In this document: positions 937 to 50,093 of the stretch, piece by piece
Position numbering within the stretch: position 1 is the first letter of the stretch
Layout: every line of letters begins with the position of its first letter
Source of the DNA: Pseudoalteromonas rubra
GTDB lineage: Bacteria; Pseudomonadota; Gammaproteobacteria; Enterobacterales; Alteromonadaceae
DNA length: 64,000 bases
Direction of reading: 5' to 3'
NCBI RefSeq assembly: GCF_005886805.2
Contig: NZ_CP045429.1
Coordinates: forward strand, 273,501-337,500
Notes under the pieces: generated by a model
The model's database searches: none
Told to the model about the DNA's origin: nothing
Seen by the model: only the letters and a program-made list of their open reading frames with translations
Translations under genes and position numbers: made by a program

Positions 937-2470
<1,534 letters not shown>

Positions 2471-2546
2471 TTTTAGTCGGTGACATGTGGGTCGCACTTA
2501 TATGTGCGACTCAGCTATCTACATTTTTTGAGGAGTAAGCGGGCTC

Positions 2547-5061
<2,515 letters not shown>

Positions 5062-9710: not shown

Positions 9711-10130
9711 ATGAAAATTTCCATTTTTTTATGCCTAATGTGCGTAATATTGATGGCATGTTCCAGTACAGGGAAGGTAACCAGGGAACAGCTTAAGCAC
9801 TCTCACTGGCAGTTAACTCAGGTTGATGGAAACAGTGTTGCAGATGCTGCTGCCATCGAAATCGAATTTCTCGATGCTTTACAGGTAGTTGGTTTTGCGG
9901 GTTGCAATCGGTTTTTTGCTGAGGGCAACATTGAGTCGGATGTACTCAAATTGGCTCAGTTAGGTATGACCCGTAAGTCATGTGGCGATGTGCTGGATGC
10001 GCAGGAAACGCAGTTTCTGGAGATGTTACAGCAGGGCGTGACCGTCACCATCCAGAATAGCAAGCTACACCTGCAAGGCCAGAAGATCTGGCAATTTAAA
10101 GCGCTGGACGCAGAGCCTTTGACTAACTAG
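9711..10130 (+). CDS. META domain lipoprotein (HslJ-like)
   Basis: A 139-residue predicted lipoprotein. Residues 1-16 are a hydrophobic signal followed by a lipobox LMAC with Cys17 as the lipidated residue. The rest is one META domain: SHWQLTQVDGN, then VVGFAGCNRFFAEGNI with the conserved GCN, TRKSCGDV with a second Cys, and LHLQGQKIWQFK at the end. The domain occurs in HslJ, a heat-inducible outer-membrane protein linked to novobiocin resistance; the function here is not established. It is followed by the thiamine riboswitch and is not part of that operon. Confidence 0.88.
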   Translation: MKISIFLCLMCVILMACSSTGKVTREQLKHSHWQLTQVDGNSVADAAAIEIEFLDALQVVGFAGCNRFFAEGNIESDVLKLAQLGMTRKSCGDVLDAQETQFLEMLQQGVTVTIQNSKLHLQGQKIWQFKALDAEPLTN

Positions 10131-10163
10131 GCGCGATTCAGTACACTTTTTCACAGTTCGTTA

Positions 10164-10248
10164 CTTGTCGGAGTGCCCATCTGGGCTGAGATCGCAGTAT
10201 TGCGGGATCCGTGGACCTGATCAGGTTAATGCCTGCGTAGGGAACAAG
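10164..10248 (+). promoter_or_regulatory. TPP riboswitch (THI element)
   Basis: A classic TPP aptamer: closing stem CTTGT (10164-10168) / ACAAG (10244-10248), the conserved GGGCTGAGAT in the pyrimidine-sensor arm, and the ACCTGATCAGG..TAATGCC..GCGTAGGGA signature in the pyrophosphate-sensor arm. It lies about 180 bases before thiC. The region between (10249-10426) can form a hairpin with CATGTTG / CAACATG at 10290-10312 and further CACAG / CTGTG pairing, which are likely expression-platform elements. I cannot tell whether control is by termination or by blocking the ribosome binding site; no hairpin followed by a clean T-run is obvious. Confidence 0.95.
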
Positions 10249-10321
10249 CTACCTAAGTTGGTATATCGTAAGATATCTAGGTTGCCAGCCATGTTGTGCC
10301 TGTGCCAACATGCTCCACTGA

Positions 10322-14511: not shown

Positions 14512-16032
14512 GTGGCTGAACTGGTATGGACCATTGCAGGGTCGGACTCGGGTGGGGGAGCAGGCATACAGGCTGATGTGAAAGCTATGCACAGCTTTGG
14601 TGTGCAAACCTGCACGGCCGTAACCGCACTGACGGCGCAAAATAGTCTCGCGGTAGAGGAAATTAACGCGGTGTCCAGTGAAGTACTGGAATCTCAGTTG
14701 CTGGCGCTCGAAGCTGACTTAAAAGCGACTGTGATTAAGATTGGCATGCTCGCTAATAGTACGCAGATCCAGTTGGTTGCAGAGCACTTGGCACAGTACA
14801 AAAGCCGCTGGGAAAGACCGCCTGTGGTGGTTTTTGATCCTGTTGCCATTGCATCCAGTGGCGATGCGCTGACCGAAGAAGATACCCTGGACGCGCTGAA
14901 AAAGTACCTCTTGCCACAGGTTGACGTGATCACGCCCAATACGCAGGAAACACAAGTACTGACTGGAGTATATCTGATTGGCCCAGACGCAGTCAGGGAC
15001 GCTGCCCGTAAACTGAGGGAGCTTGGGGTGAAATCGGTGATTATTAAAGGGGGTCACTGGGATTACCCTAACGGTTACTGTATAGATTATTGCTGGAGCG
15101 AGGGCGAGGAGTATTGGCTTGGGAATGAGGCGATACAAACACCACATAGTCATGGCACTGGTTGTAGCTTTGCATCCTCTGTCGCTGCATGTCTGGCGAA
15201 AGGTTACCCTATCAAAGATGCCTTTATTCTGGCCAAAGCTTACATCAATCAGGGGTTGAAAGTAGCACAACGATTTGGTGAGGGCAGGGGGCCACTGGCC
15301 CACGCCGGGTTCCCAGAGCAGATCAGCGATTTTCCCCAGGTCATAGAGGCGGGCAGCTGGCTGGGCGATGAGCTGGAGTTTGCGGTTAGCGAAGAGTTTA
15401 ACTTTGCCGCAGGCTTTGCACCGGTGGGAGAAGAGTTGGGGCTCTATGCTGTTGTTGATTCTGTAGACTGGGTGGAAAAATGTCTGGCTGAGGGCGTGAA
15501 AACCGTGCAACTCAGAATTAAACAGGCTGACGAAACTACGCTGGAAGAAGACATACAGTGTGCGATCACCTTGGGGGAAAAGTATCAGGGTCGGGTTTTT
15601 ATCAATGACCATTGGGAACTGGCCATTCGCCACGGAGCTTATGGTGTCCATCTTGGTCAGGAAGATTTGGATTCGGCTAACCTGGTTGCCATTCAACAGG
15701 CGGGTTTACGTCTTGGGGTATCAACACATGGTTTTTACGAAATGCTACGCGCTCATAACTACCGACCCAGCTATCTGGCGTTTGGGGCAATATACCCTAC
15801 GACGACGAAAGACATGACAGGTCAGATCCAGGGGCTGGAGAAGCTTAGACATTTTGTGCCCCTGATGCGTGAGACGTATCCTACAGTGGCTATTGGGGGG
15901 ATCGACCTGACTCGTGCTCCTCAGGTCGCTGCGACGGGGGTCGGGAGCGTCGCGGTGGTGCGTGCCATTACAGAGGCCAGTGACCACAGGCAAGCGATTA
16001 TTGACCTGAAACGGGCCACGGGCGAATCATGA
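14512..16032 (+). CDS. thiDE: Bifunctional HMP(-P) kinase / thiamine-phosphate synthase
   Basis: A fusion of two enzymes in 506 residues. Residues 1-265 are ThiD, a ribokinase-fold kinase that phosphorylates HMP and HMP-P; it shows TIAGSDSGGGAGIQAD at the N-terminus and the SHGTGCSFASSVAA anion hole. Residues 300-506 are ThiE, which joins HMP-PP to thiazole phosphate; it shows TVQLRIK, VFINDHWELA, GVHLGQEDL, AFGAIYPTTTK and AIGGID. A linker of about 35 residues separates them. Translation starts at GTG 14512 with TAGGAG upstream. The 84-base gap after thiG contains a small ACACGT / ACGTGT hairpin. The end overlaps thiF by 4 bases. Confidence 0.96.
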   Translation: MAELVWTIAGSDSGGGAGIQADVKAMHSFGVQTCTAVTALTAQNSLAVEEINAVSSEVLESQLLALEADLKATVIKIGMLANSTQIQLVAEHLAQYKSRWERPPVVVFDPVAIASSGDALTEEDTLDALKKYLLPQVDVITPNTQETQVLTGVYLIGPDAVRDAARKLRELGVKSVIIKGGHWDYPNGYCIDYCWSEGEEYWLGNEAIQTPHSHGTGCSFASSVAACLAKGYPIKDAFILAKAYINQGLKVAQRFGEGRGPLAHAGFPEQISDFPQVIEAGSWLGDELEFAVSEEFNFAAGFAPVGEELGLYAVVDSVDWVEKCLAEGVKTVQLRIKQADETTLEEDIQCAITLGEKYQGRVFINDHWELAIRHGAYGVHLGQEDLDSANLVAIQQAGLRLGVSTHGFYEMLRAHNYRPSYLAFGAIYPTTTKDMTGQIQGLEKLRHFVPLMRETYPTVAIGGIDLTRAPQVAATGVGSVAVVRAITEASDHRQAIIDLKRATGES

Positions 16033-16781
16033 GTACAGAGCTCAATGACAAAGAGCGGCTTAGGTACAGTCGTCATTTGCTCCTCAATGCAGTATCTGAA
16101 GCTGGCCAGATGCGGCTCAAAGCGGCCCGAGTGGCCGTAATTGGGTGTGGTGGCCTGGGAAGCCCTGCGCTATTTTACTTAGCGGCAAGCGGTGTTGGTC
16201 AGTTGACCTTTTGTGATGATGATGCGGTTGAATTGTCGAATTTGCAAAGGCAGATTTTGTATAAGATTAATCACATTGGCCAGTCAAAAGCAAAAGCAGC
16301 AGGAAAAGTCTTAGCGAGTCTGAATAATCAAATTTCACTTATCCCACTGTCATTGAAGCTCGACACGAGCAATATAGACTCGGTTTTGCAAGACAGTGAC
16401 TGGATCCTCGATTGCAGCGATAATTTCGCCACGCGCTACTTACTGAATCAGTATTGCCTGCGTGAACGTAAAGTACTTATCTCTGGCGCAGCGCTGGGCA
16501 CTCAGGGACAGTTTATGACGTTTGACTTCAGAGCATCGTCTCCTTGCTATCATTGCGTCTTCCCTGAGTCGCCAGAATCTACCGAATTAAATTGTCAGAA
16601 TGCCGGCGTAGTCAGCCCATTGCTTGGCATGATTGGCTCTATGCAGGCTATGAAAGCGGTCAGTTTGATTGTCTCTGGTGTACCAGACAAGGCGAGTGAG
16701 ATGATAGTGGTTGATGCGTTAAGTTTGCAGCAGAGGCAATTTGCACTGGAAAAAGATCCCGCATGTACGGTGTGCTGCTAA
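16029..16781 (+). CDS. thiF: ThiS adenylyltransferase ThiF
   Basis: An E1-like enzyme of 250 residues that adenylates the C-terminal glycine of ThiS. The N-terminal RYSRHLLL is typical of the MoeB/ThiF family. The nucleotide motif is GCGGLGSPAL, and two Cys pairs (PCYHC and CTVCC at the C-terminus) should bind zinc. The ATG overlaps the thiDE stop (ATGA). It is the last gene of the thiamine operon. The gene for a small leader-type peptide starts 57 bases later with no terminator between, so readthrough into it is possible. Confidence 0.94.
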   Translation: MSTELNDKERLRYSRHLLLNAVSEAGQMRLKAARVAVIGCGGLGSPALFYLAASGVGQLTFCDDDAVELSNLQRQILYKINHIGQSKAKAAGKVLASLNNQISLIPLSLKLDTSNIDSVLQDSDWILDCSDNFATRYLLNQYCLRERKVLISGAALGTQGQFMTFDFRASSPCYHCVFPESPESTELNCQNAGVVSPLLGMIGSMQAMKAVSLIVSGVPDKASEMIVVDALSLQQRQFALEKDPACTVCC

Positions 16782-16838
16782 TCCTGTCATGCTAATGTGT
16801 TTTCGTATTGTCGATTTATTCATCAATAAGGAAACATT

Positions 16839-17012
16839 ATGAAAATCACACTCTCTAAAAAGAACCTCAAACAATTAAGCTCGCAAAGACGTGAGATAAA
16901 CCCGCAGGAAACCCCTAAAGTTGCTGGTGGGGTGTCGGTACTTGCGCCTTGCTATACAGGCCCGGCTGGTTCGTGCGTCTGGTCTGTGTGTACGCTGATT
17001 GGATGTCCTTAA
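16839..17012 (+). CDS. Putative RiPP precursor peptide with double-Gly leader (lanthipeptide-like)
   Basis: A 57-residue ORF with a good ribosome binding site (AAGGAA, 5 bases before the ATG). The first 31 residues form a charged Lys/Leu-rich leader (MKITLSKKNLKQLS...) ending in TPKVAGG, a double-glycine cleavage site. The last 26 residues form a hydrophobic core with four Cys (residues 38, 46, 51, 56) and several Ser and Thr. This layout is that of precursors of ribosomally made, modified peptides; small MK-x-L-x-KKNLK-x-LS...TP-x-VAGG peptides are, to my knowledge, frequent in Pseudoalteromonas and sometimes annotated as class I lanthipeptides. No modifying enzyme, peptidase or exporter lies nearby, so these would have to act from another locus. 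It ends before a strong terminator. Confidence 0.7.
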   Translation: MKITLSKKNLKQLSSQRREINPQETPKVAGGVSVLAPCYTGPAGSCVWSVCTLIGCP

Positions 17013-17044
17013 CGTTCAGTTTAGCACCCATATCTTGGTACTCT

Positions 17045-17082
17045 GACACTAAAAAGCCCGCATGCGCGGGCTTTTTAGTGTC
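17045..17082. terminator. Strong bidirectional terminator
   Basis: A perfect 17-bp stem (17045-17061 / 17066-17082) with a 4-base loop, GC-rich core GCCCGC / GCGGGC and A/T runs on both sides. It ends the peptide gene on the plus strand and psd on the minus strand. Confidence 0.95.
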
Positions 17083-17096
17083 TTATTTGGGTGGGG

Positions 17097-17963
17097 TTAT
17101 TCACGAATGGTCGCGAATGGCGTGCCCATGCGGGTGACTGTCTCTGGCAACTGGTTTGCGAGGAAGTCGGCTTTATCTTCTCCCCAGGCCAGGATCACCG
17201 TTGAGCCCAGCTTAAAGCGGCCCATCTCGTCGCCTTTTTTCAATTTAACGGCGTTGTCGCCCTCTGCGGGATAATCCCAGCTAAAGACGTCTTTGCCGGC
17301 TGGTGGCGTGACTGTGCCCGCCCAGATGGTTTCGATGCTGGCCACTATGGTGGCGCCCACCAGTACCATAGCCAGTGGACCTATCTCAGTGTCAAAGATA
17401 GCGACAACCCGCTCGTTACGAGCAAACAGATTAGGGACGTTTTGCGCAGTTAGCGGGTTTACCGAGAACAGATCGCCAGGTACGTAGATCATCTTTTTCA
17501 GCGTACCATCAAGGGGCATATGAATGCGGTGATAGTCTTTGGGCGCCAGATAAATGGTGGCAAACTTACCACCAAGATACGGTGCTACGTCGGATTCTTT
17601 GCCCCCCAGCAGGGTTTGCAGGCTGTAGTCATGGCCTTTGGCCTGAATGATCTGACCATCGACTACATCACCTAACTGGCTGATGGCACCGTCGACCGGG
17701 TGAGCCACAATGCTGGCTTCTTCGGCAAGTGGGCGGATCCCCGGCTTCAGCGGACGGGTAAAGAATTCATTAAAGGTTTTATAGTGAGCTGGATCTTCAT
17801 GCAGGGCTTCACTCATGTCTATCTTGTACTGTTTGATAAACAATTTAATTAAGGTGGTTGTCAGTGCACCCGCTTCGGCTGCGGCCAGTTTTCCCACCAA
17901 ACGTGATACGGCATGTTTGGGTAAAGCATATTGCAGGGCAATCTTTAGTTTATCCAAGTTCAC
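17097..17963 (-). CDS. psd: Phosphatidylserine decarboxylase proenzyme
   Basis: Psd makes phosphatidylethanolamine at the inner membrane. From the GTG whose first base is 17963 the protein has 288 residues, with AGGAA about 9 bases upstream and the normal N-terminus [19 protein letters not shown]; a longer reading would run into rsgA and is rejected. The self-cleavage motif LGST is at 252-255 (Ser254 becomes the pyruvoyl group). The AHPVDGAIS and YHRIHMP segments supply the other catalytic residues. It follows rsgA by 34 bases on the same strand, the common rsgA-psd arrangement. Confidence 0.95.
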
Positions 17964-17997
17964 TTTTATTATTCCTGAAAAAATTTTGAAGATAGTA

Positions 17998-20027: not shown

Positions 20028-20103
20028 GCGGCACTAGCTCAGCTGGTAGAGCGCGACCTTGCCAAGGTCGAGGTCACGAGTTCGAACCTCGTGTGCCGCT
20101 CCA
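20028..20103 (+). tRNA. tRNA-Gly (GCC), copy 1
   Basis: 76 bases with all four arms: acceptor GCGGCAC / GTGCCGC, anticodon loop TTGCCAA (anticodon GCC), T-arm with GTTCGAAC, and an encoded CCA. Confidence 0.97.
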
Positions 20104-20152
20104 ATCTACAATCAGTTTACTCAACTGACTAAAAAAGAGTACTTATGGTGAT

Positions 20153-20228
20153 GCGGCACTAGCTCAGCTGGTAGAGCGCGACCTTGCCAAGGTCGAGGTC
20201 ACGAGTTCGAACCTCGTGTGCCGCTCCA
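20153..20228 (+). tRNA. tRNA-Gly (GCC), copy 2
   Basis: Identical 76-base sequence to copy 1, with encoded CCA. The 49-base spacer before it is repeated before copy 3. Confidence 0.97.
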
Positions 20229-20240
20229 ATCTATAAGCAG

Positions 20241-20287
20241 CCTTGCCAAGGTCGAGGTCACGAGTTCGAACCTCGTGTGCCGCTCCA
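20241..20287 (+). pseudogene. 3' fragment of tRNA-Gly
   Basis: Forty-seven bases identical to the 3' part of the tRNA-Gly gene, from the anticodon arm through CCA. The acceptor 5' strand and D-arm are missing. The fragment follows directly on a truncated spacer (CTATAAGCAG), so a deletion between neighbouring repeats is the simplest origin. It cannot form a tRNA. Confidence 0.9.
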
Positions 20288-20336
20288 ATCTACAATCAGT
20301 TTACTCAACTGACTAAAAAAGAGTACTTATGGTGAT

Positions 20337-20412
20337 GCGGCACTAGCTCAGCTGGTAGAGCGCGACCTTGCCAAGGTCGAGGTCACGAGTTCGAACCTCG
20401 TGTGCCGCTCCA
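20337..20412 (+). tRNA. tRNA-Gly (GCC), copy 3
   Basis: Identical to copies 1 and 2, 76 bases with CCA. Confidence 0.97.
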
Positions 20413-20461
20413 ATCTATAAGCAGTTTACTCAACTGATTAAAAACGAGTATTTATTGTGAT

Positions 20462-20537
20462 GCGGCACTAGCTCAGCTGGTAGAGCGCGACCTTGCCAAG
20501 GTCGAGGTCACGAGTTCGAACCTCGTGTGCCGCTCCA
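20462..20537 (+). tRNA. tRNA-Gly (GCC), copy 4
   Basis: Identical to copies 1-3, 76 bases with CCA. Confidence 0.97.
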
Positions 20538-20577
20538 ACACTTCTTCAGGTGTATAAACTAGATACTTTATTATGAA

Positions 20578-20656
20578 GCGGCACTAGCTCAGCTGCTAAA
20601 CGTTAGACGCGACCTCAAGGTTGCGCCCAGCGGGAAACTAAGAGCTACATTGTGAT
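20578..20656 (+). repeat. tRNA-Gly-like chimeric repeat 3 (79-bp tandem unit)
   Basis: Begins with the same 18-base tRNA-Gly 5' segment, then CTAAACGTTAGA and a hairpin CGCGACC / GGTTGCG with loop TCAA. The hairpin differs from that of repeats 1 and 2. Followed at once by a second 79-bp unit. Confidence 0.7.
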
Positions 20657-20735
20657 GCGGCACTGGCTCAGCTGCTAAACGTTAGACGCGACCTCAAGGT
20701 TGCACCCAGCGGGAAACTAAGAGCTACATTGTGAT
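20657..20735 (+). repeat. tRNA-Gly-like chimeric repeat 4 (79-bp tandem unit)
   Basis: Seventy-seven of 79 bases match repeat 3. One of the two changes (G to A in the 3' arm) weakens the last base pair of the hairpin. The unit abuts tRNA-Gly copy 5. Confidence 0.7.
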
Positions 20736-20811
20736 GCGGCACTAGCTCAGCTGGTAGAGCGCGACCTTGCCAAGGTCGAGGTCACGAGTTCGAACCTCGT
20801 GTGCCGCTCCA
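20736..20811 (+). tRNA. tRNA-Gly (GCC), copy 5
   Basis: Identical to the other four copies, 76 bases with CCA; last gene of the cluster. Confidence 0.97.
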
Positions 20812-50021: not shown

Positions 50022-50060
50022 TCTGGCATTTGCTAGGTTCGCTGCCTGAGCAATCAGGCA

Positions 50061-50093
50061 AGGGCTGGTGATTATTTAATCACCGGCCCTTTT
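50061..50093 (+). terminator. rplL-rpoB attenuator-like hairpin
   Basis: GGGCTGGTGATTA / TAATCACCGGCCC followed by TTTT, with one G-U pair. The position between rplL and rpoB matches the partial terminator of E. coli, which lets only part of transcription continue into rpoB. Confidence 0.7.

Follow-up and report, generated by a model that had tools for sequence, protein, structure and literature searches.

A predicted class I lanthipeptide precursor behind the thiamine operon of Pseudoalteromonas rubra and its dispersed leader family

What is a 57-codon gene with a precursor-like product doing behind thiF in Pseudoalteromonas rubra, and which enzymes would process that product? The gene (positions 16839..17012, plus strand, of the 64,000-nucleotide stretch analyzed here, which we call the window) adjoins thiF, its presumed operon partner, upstream (16029..16781, plus strand; PF00899, E 4e-72) and the convergent psd downstream (17097..17978, minus strand, with a provisional start; PF02666 and TIGR00163). 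None of this genome's matches to LanB, LanC, or C39 falls within the 64-kb window, in agreement with a first-pass annotation that saw no such genes nearby. Elsewhere, the window contains five consecutive tRNA-Gly(gcc) genes with equal Rfam scores (20028-20811) and an Rfam match to the Pseudomonas sRNA P26 (RF00630, 47 bits; 50029-50089).

The open reading frame (ORF) runs from an ATG through its stop codon and is preceded by a Shine-Dalgarno-like AAGGAA (16828..16833, plus strand). Its product consists of a 31-residue leader, MKITLSKKNLKQLSSQRREINPQETPKVAGG (16839..16931), with the double-Gly end TPKVAGG, as delimited by an alignment of 34 leaders (A1), and a 26-residue core, VSVLAPCYTGPAGSCVWSVCTLIGCP (16932..17009), with four Cys and five Ser/Thr in the ORF translation. 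The gene length, good ribosome binding site, leader end, and four-Cys core described in the first-pass annotation can all be read in the letters as stated.

In the nearest genome (G007, with an RsgA 100% identical at the printed precision), a 96% identical counterpart occupies the same place. The two genes differ by 13 synonymous and 2 nonsynonymous changes (dN/dS 0.039), which departs from neutrality (binomial P 7e-7), and their cores alone by 9 synonymous and 1 nonsynonymous change (dN/dS 0.030). The ORF is a real gene under purifying selection. A Pfam search of the peptide found no family above the cut-off (best DUF707, E 0.11) and an NCBIfam search found no match; no leader family of either collection was hit. 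A search of 5.8 billion proteins returned one homologue, near-identical, because the method needs shared 5-residue words. Siblings of the gene were recovered by whole-genome searches.

These siblings share a leader with the consensus MKLxLxKKxxKxLS...TPxVAGG, in which K7, K11, L13, T25, and G30 are invariant across the 34 leaders of A1. The peptide had been called an orphan, and a leader search for sibling precursors had been proposed. The term is right for the local neighborhood, where ThiF and Psd adjoin, but wrong genome-wide: the A1 leader model found 30 places in this genome (G000) at E <= 1e-3, on both contigs and with cores that all differ. The gene behind thiF scores E 5.6e-15, being itself a row of the model. 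Of the 30 members, 23 have AAGGA no more than 20 bases from the start, and 25 have AGGA. Four further places were weaker (E 0.014 to 0.7). One of them, on contig C1 (G000 C1:1314295-1314366, minus strand; E 0.014), is a truncated relic near L107 whose counterparts in G007 and G106 are longer and have a core with Cys, so not every family member is functional.

Across 107 genomes of the genus, the leader model found at least 1,299 places in 51 genomes, a lower bound, since scoring was limited to 75 candidates in nine genomes. The median was 20 places per genome and the maximum 71, among the candidates scored. As A1 was built from members of the genus, its counts lean to this leader type. Among 394 genomes from the order, five matched at E <= 1e-4: G000 and G012 from this genus, two from another genus of the family, and one from another family. 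A single-sequence search at E <= 1 was set aside; it matched 68 of 108 genomes, including 17 without LanB that had weak matches only (best E 0.037), and in those 17 the leader model finds no match at 1e-3.

The paralogues in this genome have a mean identity of 44% in the leaders and 19% in the cores. Cys accounts for 98 of 835 core residues (about 12%) versus 2 of 908 leader residues; all 30 cores contain Cys and Ser/Thr, and 29 contain at least two Cys. We compared the 30 precursors with 40 from G007 and 30 from G106, and found counterparts (matching flank, >50% identity) for 26 in G007 and 14 in G106. Summed over the G007 pairs, dN/dS was 0.118 for leaders and 0.117 for cores, with a mean identity of 0.94 for both. 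The core was more identical than the leader in 11 of these pairs and the leader more than the core in 10, and the idea that cores are the more conserved part was not supported. Synonymous change in the G106 pairs is near saturation, making their ratios rough. Three G007 cores have at most 75% identity (L109, the second gene of L116, and L118), and L096, L110, and one of the two L116 genes have no counterpart among the G007 precursors compared. Because the cores vary among genes and yet persist across species (dN/dS 0.12), a separate function for each product is probable. Selection seems to act on the individual sequence of most products, even as members are still gained and lost. A biological activity of the peptide encoded behind thiF is likewise predicted.

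The first-pass annotation supposed that the processing enzymes are encoded elsewhere and suggested a search for LanB/LanC and C39 exporter genes. One such set exists, on the same contig and far outside the window: one LanB, one standalone LanC, one C39 ABC exporter, and an HlyD-type adaptor are encoded by adjoining genes on the minus strand of C1, at about 4543397-4551370. LanB (1049 aa) and LanC (406 aa) lie at G000 C1:4543397-4547774, and the exporter has 714 aa. LanB carries both dehydratase domains (PF04738 and PF14028) and, among sequences of solved structure, matches NisB and a chain named Lantibiotic dehydratase (5ehk), which we take to be MibB. LanC (PF05147) has WCYG and CHG aligned with LanC-like proteins of solved structure; these are presumably the Zn ligands. 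Solved chains named ABC-type bacteriocin transporter, which we assume to be PCAT, align with the exporter over about 700 residues. The leader model found no match in the 20-kb region around the LanB set (L090) and no family precursor within 200 kb of it. The nearest precursors are at C1:4208934 (334 kb away) and C1:191189, the latter about 235 kb away if the 4,595,233-base contig is circular, as we assumed. A second lanthipeptide locus is present on contig C2 (L091 7033-9756), where a class III LanKC-like synthetase gene (RamC_N, kinase, and LanC-like domains) adjoins an S9-type peptidase and an ABC transporter.

Leaders and LanB are found in the same 51 of the 107 genomes. LanC was also detected in 51, a set that differs by two genomes: G001, which has LanB and one leader and no LanC match, and G017, which has a weak match below the cut-off. 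Grouped by RsgA identity (RsgA was matched in 106 of the 107 genomes), LanB-positive genomes make up 35/35 at 88-100%, 10/22 at 86-87%, 4/42 at 81-84%, and 2/7 below 81%. This patchy distribution does not look like that of one clade. Of 37 named LanB loci, 12 by a hand count carry a precursor with this leader no more than about 2.5 kb from LanB; some of the 37 include little sequence beside LanB (L161, L184). Loci of P. flavipulchra, P. piscicida, P. phenolica, and Colwellia MAGs are among the 12. The five nearest loci (LanB identity 91-93%; L152, L153, L154, L171, and L177), three of them labelled P. rubra, have no same-leader precursor in the 20-23 kb covered.

Some LanB loci carry precursors of another kind. 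In four loci of the P. luteoviolacea group (L155, L157, L170, and L182), tandem Cys-free precursors lie at about 2200-3040, ~7 kb from LanB, with a related leader ending in MTxxINGG and, in most, a common SSDTSVT core. Lacking Cys, they are unable to form lanthionines and may serve as substrates of another enzyme. L156, L162, L163, and L168 (from P. luteoviolacea, P. aurantia, strain B95, and P. byunsanensis) have a leader of this kind and, after it, NTDTVTQ, NTDTITQ, or NTDTVNP, repeated in some.

How did one member of the family come to sit behind thiF? In seven relatives (G051, G093, G052, G061, G094, G106, and G053), thiF and psd are 58-62 bp apart, with little in between except a GCCCGC...GCGGGC hairpin, bordered by runs of A and T, right behind thiF. 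The gap is 315 bp in G000 and 306 bp in G007, with the precursor between thiF and the hairpin. Gap ends were taken from the psd alignment or the ORF end, and the hairpins of the relatives were read by eye. When two relatives were put through the terminator scan, the hairpin was reported in G106 and not in G051, where pairing between the flanking A and T runs uses up the T tail. The leader model found no match at the thiF locus in 29 of the 30 other genomes examined, the exception being G007. The precursor is a small module inserted between thiF and the thi terminator. No repeats convincingly explain the insertion; a 19-bp repeat (79%) coincides in part with the terminator stem itself. Elsewhere, one precursor is shared by L117 of G000 and L224 of G007 within a similar segment of 340 bp whose flanks do not match over the stretches compared, so precursor modules of about 340 bp may move.

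Together, these data lead us to propose, with considerable confidence, that 16839..17012 encodes a class I lanthipeptide precursor that is modified and exported in trans by the single distant LanB/LanC/C39/HlyD set and is expressed on a thi-tail mRNA. The distant LanB and LanC would recognize the leader, dehydrate Ser/Thr of the core, and close thioether rings with its four Cys. The C39-peptidase ABC exporter and the HlyD-type adaptor would then cut after Gly-Gly and export a core with up to four rings. About 30 precursors of the genome are predicted to use this one enzyme set, and the mRNA of the inserted module would come mainly from the tail of the TPP-riboswitch thi operon. The first-pass annotation had proposed a double-Gly-leader RiPP precursor, possibly one of many scattered precursors with one shared set of enzymes. 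The VAGG leader end, the C39-peptidase exporter in the genome, the 30 same-leader places, and the match of leaders and LanB in the same 51 of 107 genomes agree with that proposal, and the class is narrowed to class I (LanB/LanC). The observations it had singled out as critical are present as well, with siblings in the genus, a C39 exporter in the genome, and an intact counterpart in G007.

The expression part of this proposal depends on the thi operon. A TPP riboswitch (10159..10260, plus strand; RF00059, 82.6 bits) stands at the head of the operon, and 5' of it is a promoter-like site (10119..10147, plus strand), a consensus match only, in a region with 9 such sites versus 6.5 expected by chance. 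The thi genes other than thiF are named presumptively from their sequences. The gene begins 57 bases 3' of the thiF end at 16781, and the terminator scan found no terminator-like site between the two (16782..16838), as had been noted earlier. It sits between thiF and the terminator hairpin (17045..17082; 17-bp stem, 4-nt loop) that separates the convergent thi operon and psd, which would make it the final cistron of the operon under the TPP riboswitch. The simplest reading of this arrangement is that the gene is transcribed as the thi tail, at a low level at high thiamine. Both this anatomy and the insertion before the ancestral hairpin are consistent with expression coupled to thiamine status.

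It is possible, though we think it somewhat unlikely, that this real class I precursor is instead transcribed independently of thiamine, from its own promoter in the 57-bp spacer. The spacer differs from that of G007 at 2 of 57 positions while the synonymous divergence of the gene is 0.40, and a promoter inside so conserved a spacer is possible. Position at an operon tail is not supported as a general rule: by a rough ORF call, an upstream gene in the same direction precedes 17 of the 30 family members (one has no upstream gene called), and the 13 for which no such gene was found must have their own promoters. On the other hand, a scan for sigma-70-like sites found none in 16600-17150 (mean 0.7 expected by chance), no terminator lies between thiF and the gene, and no 7-mer stood out upstream of the 30 members in a weak test limited to 7-mers. 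No riboswitch was found within ~1.5 kb on either side of the other members, and the only hits were rRNA genes beside one of them; the riboswitch test is weak, as our gene's own TPP riboswitch is 6.6 kb upstream and the same stretch around this gene is also empty. PhoU, two sigma-54 response regulators, an AraC-type regulator, and a flavodoxin are among the domains of the co-directional upstream neighbors of ten other members, so the host genes are diverse. One sibling lies 94 bp behind a phoU gene.

The assignment to class I has to be weighed against processing by other means. A C39 exporter alone would be needed if the product were an unmodified double-Gly microcin-type peptide, and the double-Gly leader and the C39 exporter with its HlyD adaptor would suit this. 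However, C39 matches occur in all 51 LanB genomes and also in 29 genomes that lack LanB, and none of these 29 has a leader at E <= 1e-3. Thirteen of them have a strong C39 match (E <= 2e-30), and the remaining matches are mostly weaker, perhaps degenerate domains. With at least one leader in every LanB genome, precursors beside LanB in 12 of the 37 named loci, and cores with about 12% Cys plus Ser/Thr, we regard the microcin-type explanation as very improbable. Slightly less probable still is processing by the LanKC-like synthetase on C2. It has the RamC_N, kinase, and LanC-like domains, and one sibling is encoded about 8 kb away (L091 17327-17530), but the leader model finds only that sibling on the 20-kb C2 stretch, and by our own count 10 of the 51 leader-positive genomes have a LanC-domain frame of about 890-931 residues and 41 have none, the frame in G000 being the one identified as LanKC-like. 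A chance ORF or decayed relic, which would be short and would explain the one homologue among 5.8 billion proteins and the lack of a Pfam family above the cut-off or an NCBIfam match, is next to impossible given the 13 synonymous versus 2 nonsynonymous changes against G007 and the conservation of the leader in 51 genomes.

A distant class I set acting on a class I precursor, the reading we prefer, has precedents in the genus for its chemistry. Pseudorosins A-C are described as class I lanthipeptides of P. flavipulchra S16, made with the dehydratase PsfB (PMC12819058, citing Wang 2023), and PciA as a class I lanthipeptide of P. citrea (PMC9993889). As far as the available portions of these reports go, they share the genus and the LanB/LanC chemistry with the system described here, and differ in that our 30 precursors are dispersed, with none found less than 200 kb from the enzymes and this one in a thiamine operon. 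Three precursors with this leader lie in the LanB locus of P. flavipulchra BAA-314 (L175). A similar class I lanthipeptide region has been described in P. viridis BBR56, and the excerpt available makes no mention of remote precursors, unlike here (PMC11015633).

For the scattered layout, the closest parallels are the prochlorosins and synechococsins, whose scattered precursors are served by one synthetase (ProcM, SyncM; PMC10783134, PMC7268733). From the parts of those papers at hand, the prochlorosins and our system have in common tens of scattered precursors with a conserved leader and diverse cores, and one synthetase set. The prochlorosin system differs, by the same partial sources, in its class II LanM and its Nif11-family leader; ours has class I LanB/LanC and a different leader, about 31 residues long. 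By analogy, the dispersed system would work like the prochlorosins without being a member, given that the covarying enzyme is LanB and no known leader family matched. Class I lanthipeptides of the Bacteroidota type have Lys-rich double-Gly leaders, a C39 exporter, and precursors inside the gene cluster. Leader style and exporter are alike, whereas the precursors are clustered there and dispersed here. A double-Gly exporter also belongs to the prochlorosin system.

In literature searches of incomplete coverage, which drew on partial texts, we recognized no report of dispersed class I precursors in Pseudoalteromonas. Class I lanthipeptides of the genus were already known; new here is the dispersed, prochlorosin-like layout of the precursors, one of them inserted in a riboswitch-controlled vitamin operon. 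The genetics and evolution of this dispersed class I system are well supported. As a tentative generalization, which we consider unlikely to hold in its entirety, mobile modules of about 250-340 bp, some at the tails of physiologically controlled operons such as thi, would each yield a distinct, individually selected lanthipeptide only while the host operon is on, all processed by one promiscuous LanB/LanC/exporter set. If true, the product of 16839..17012 would be a lanthipeptide under thiamine control. The family would parallel the prochlorosins in class I, a single genome having as many as 71 leader matches among the candidates scored, and mining only beside LanB/LanC would miss most of these precursors. 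It would also provide a large natural substrate set for one LanB/LanC pair, and insertion at operon tails makes the wiring of peptide production to local physiology, such as thiamine status, testable.
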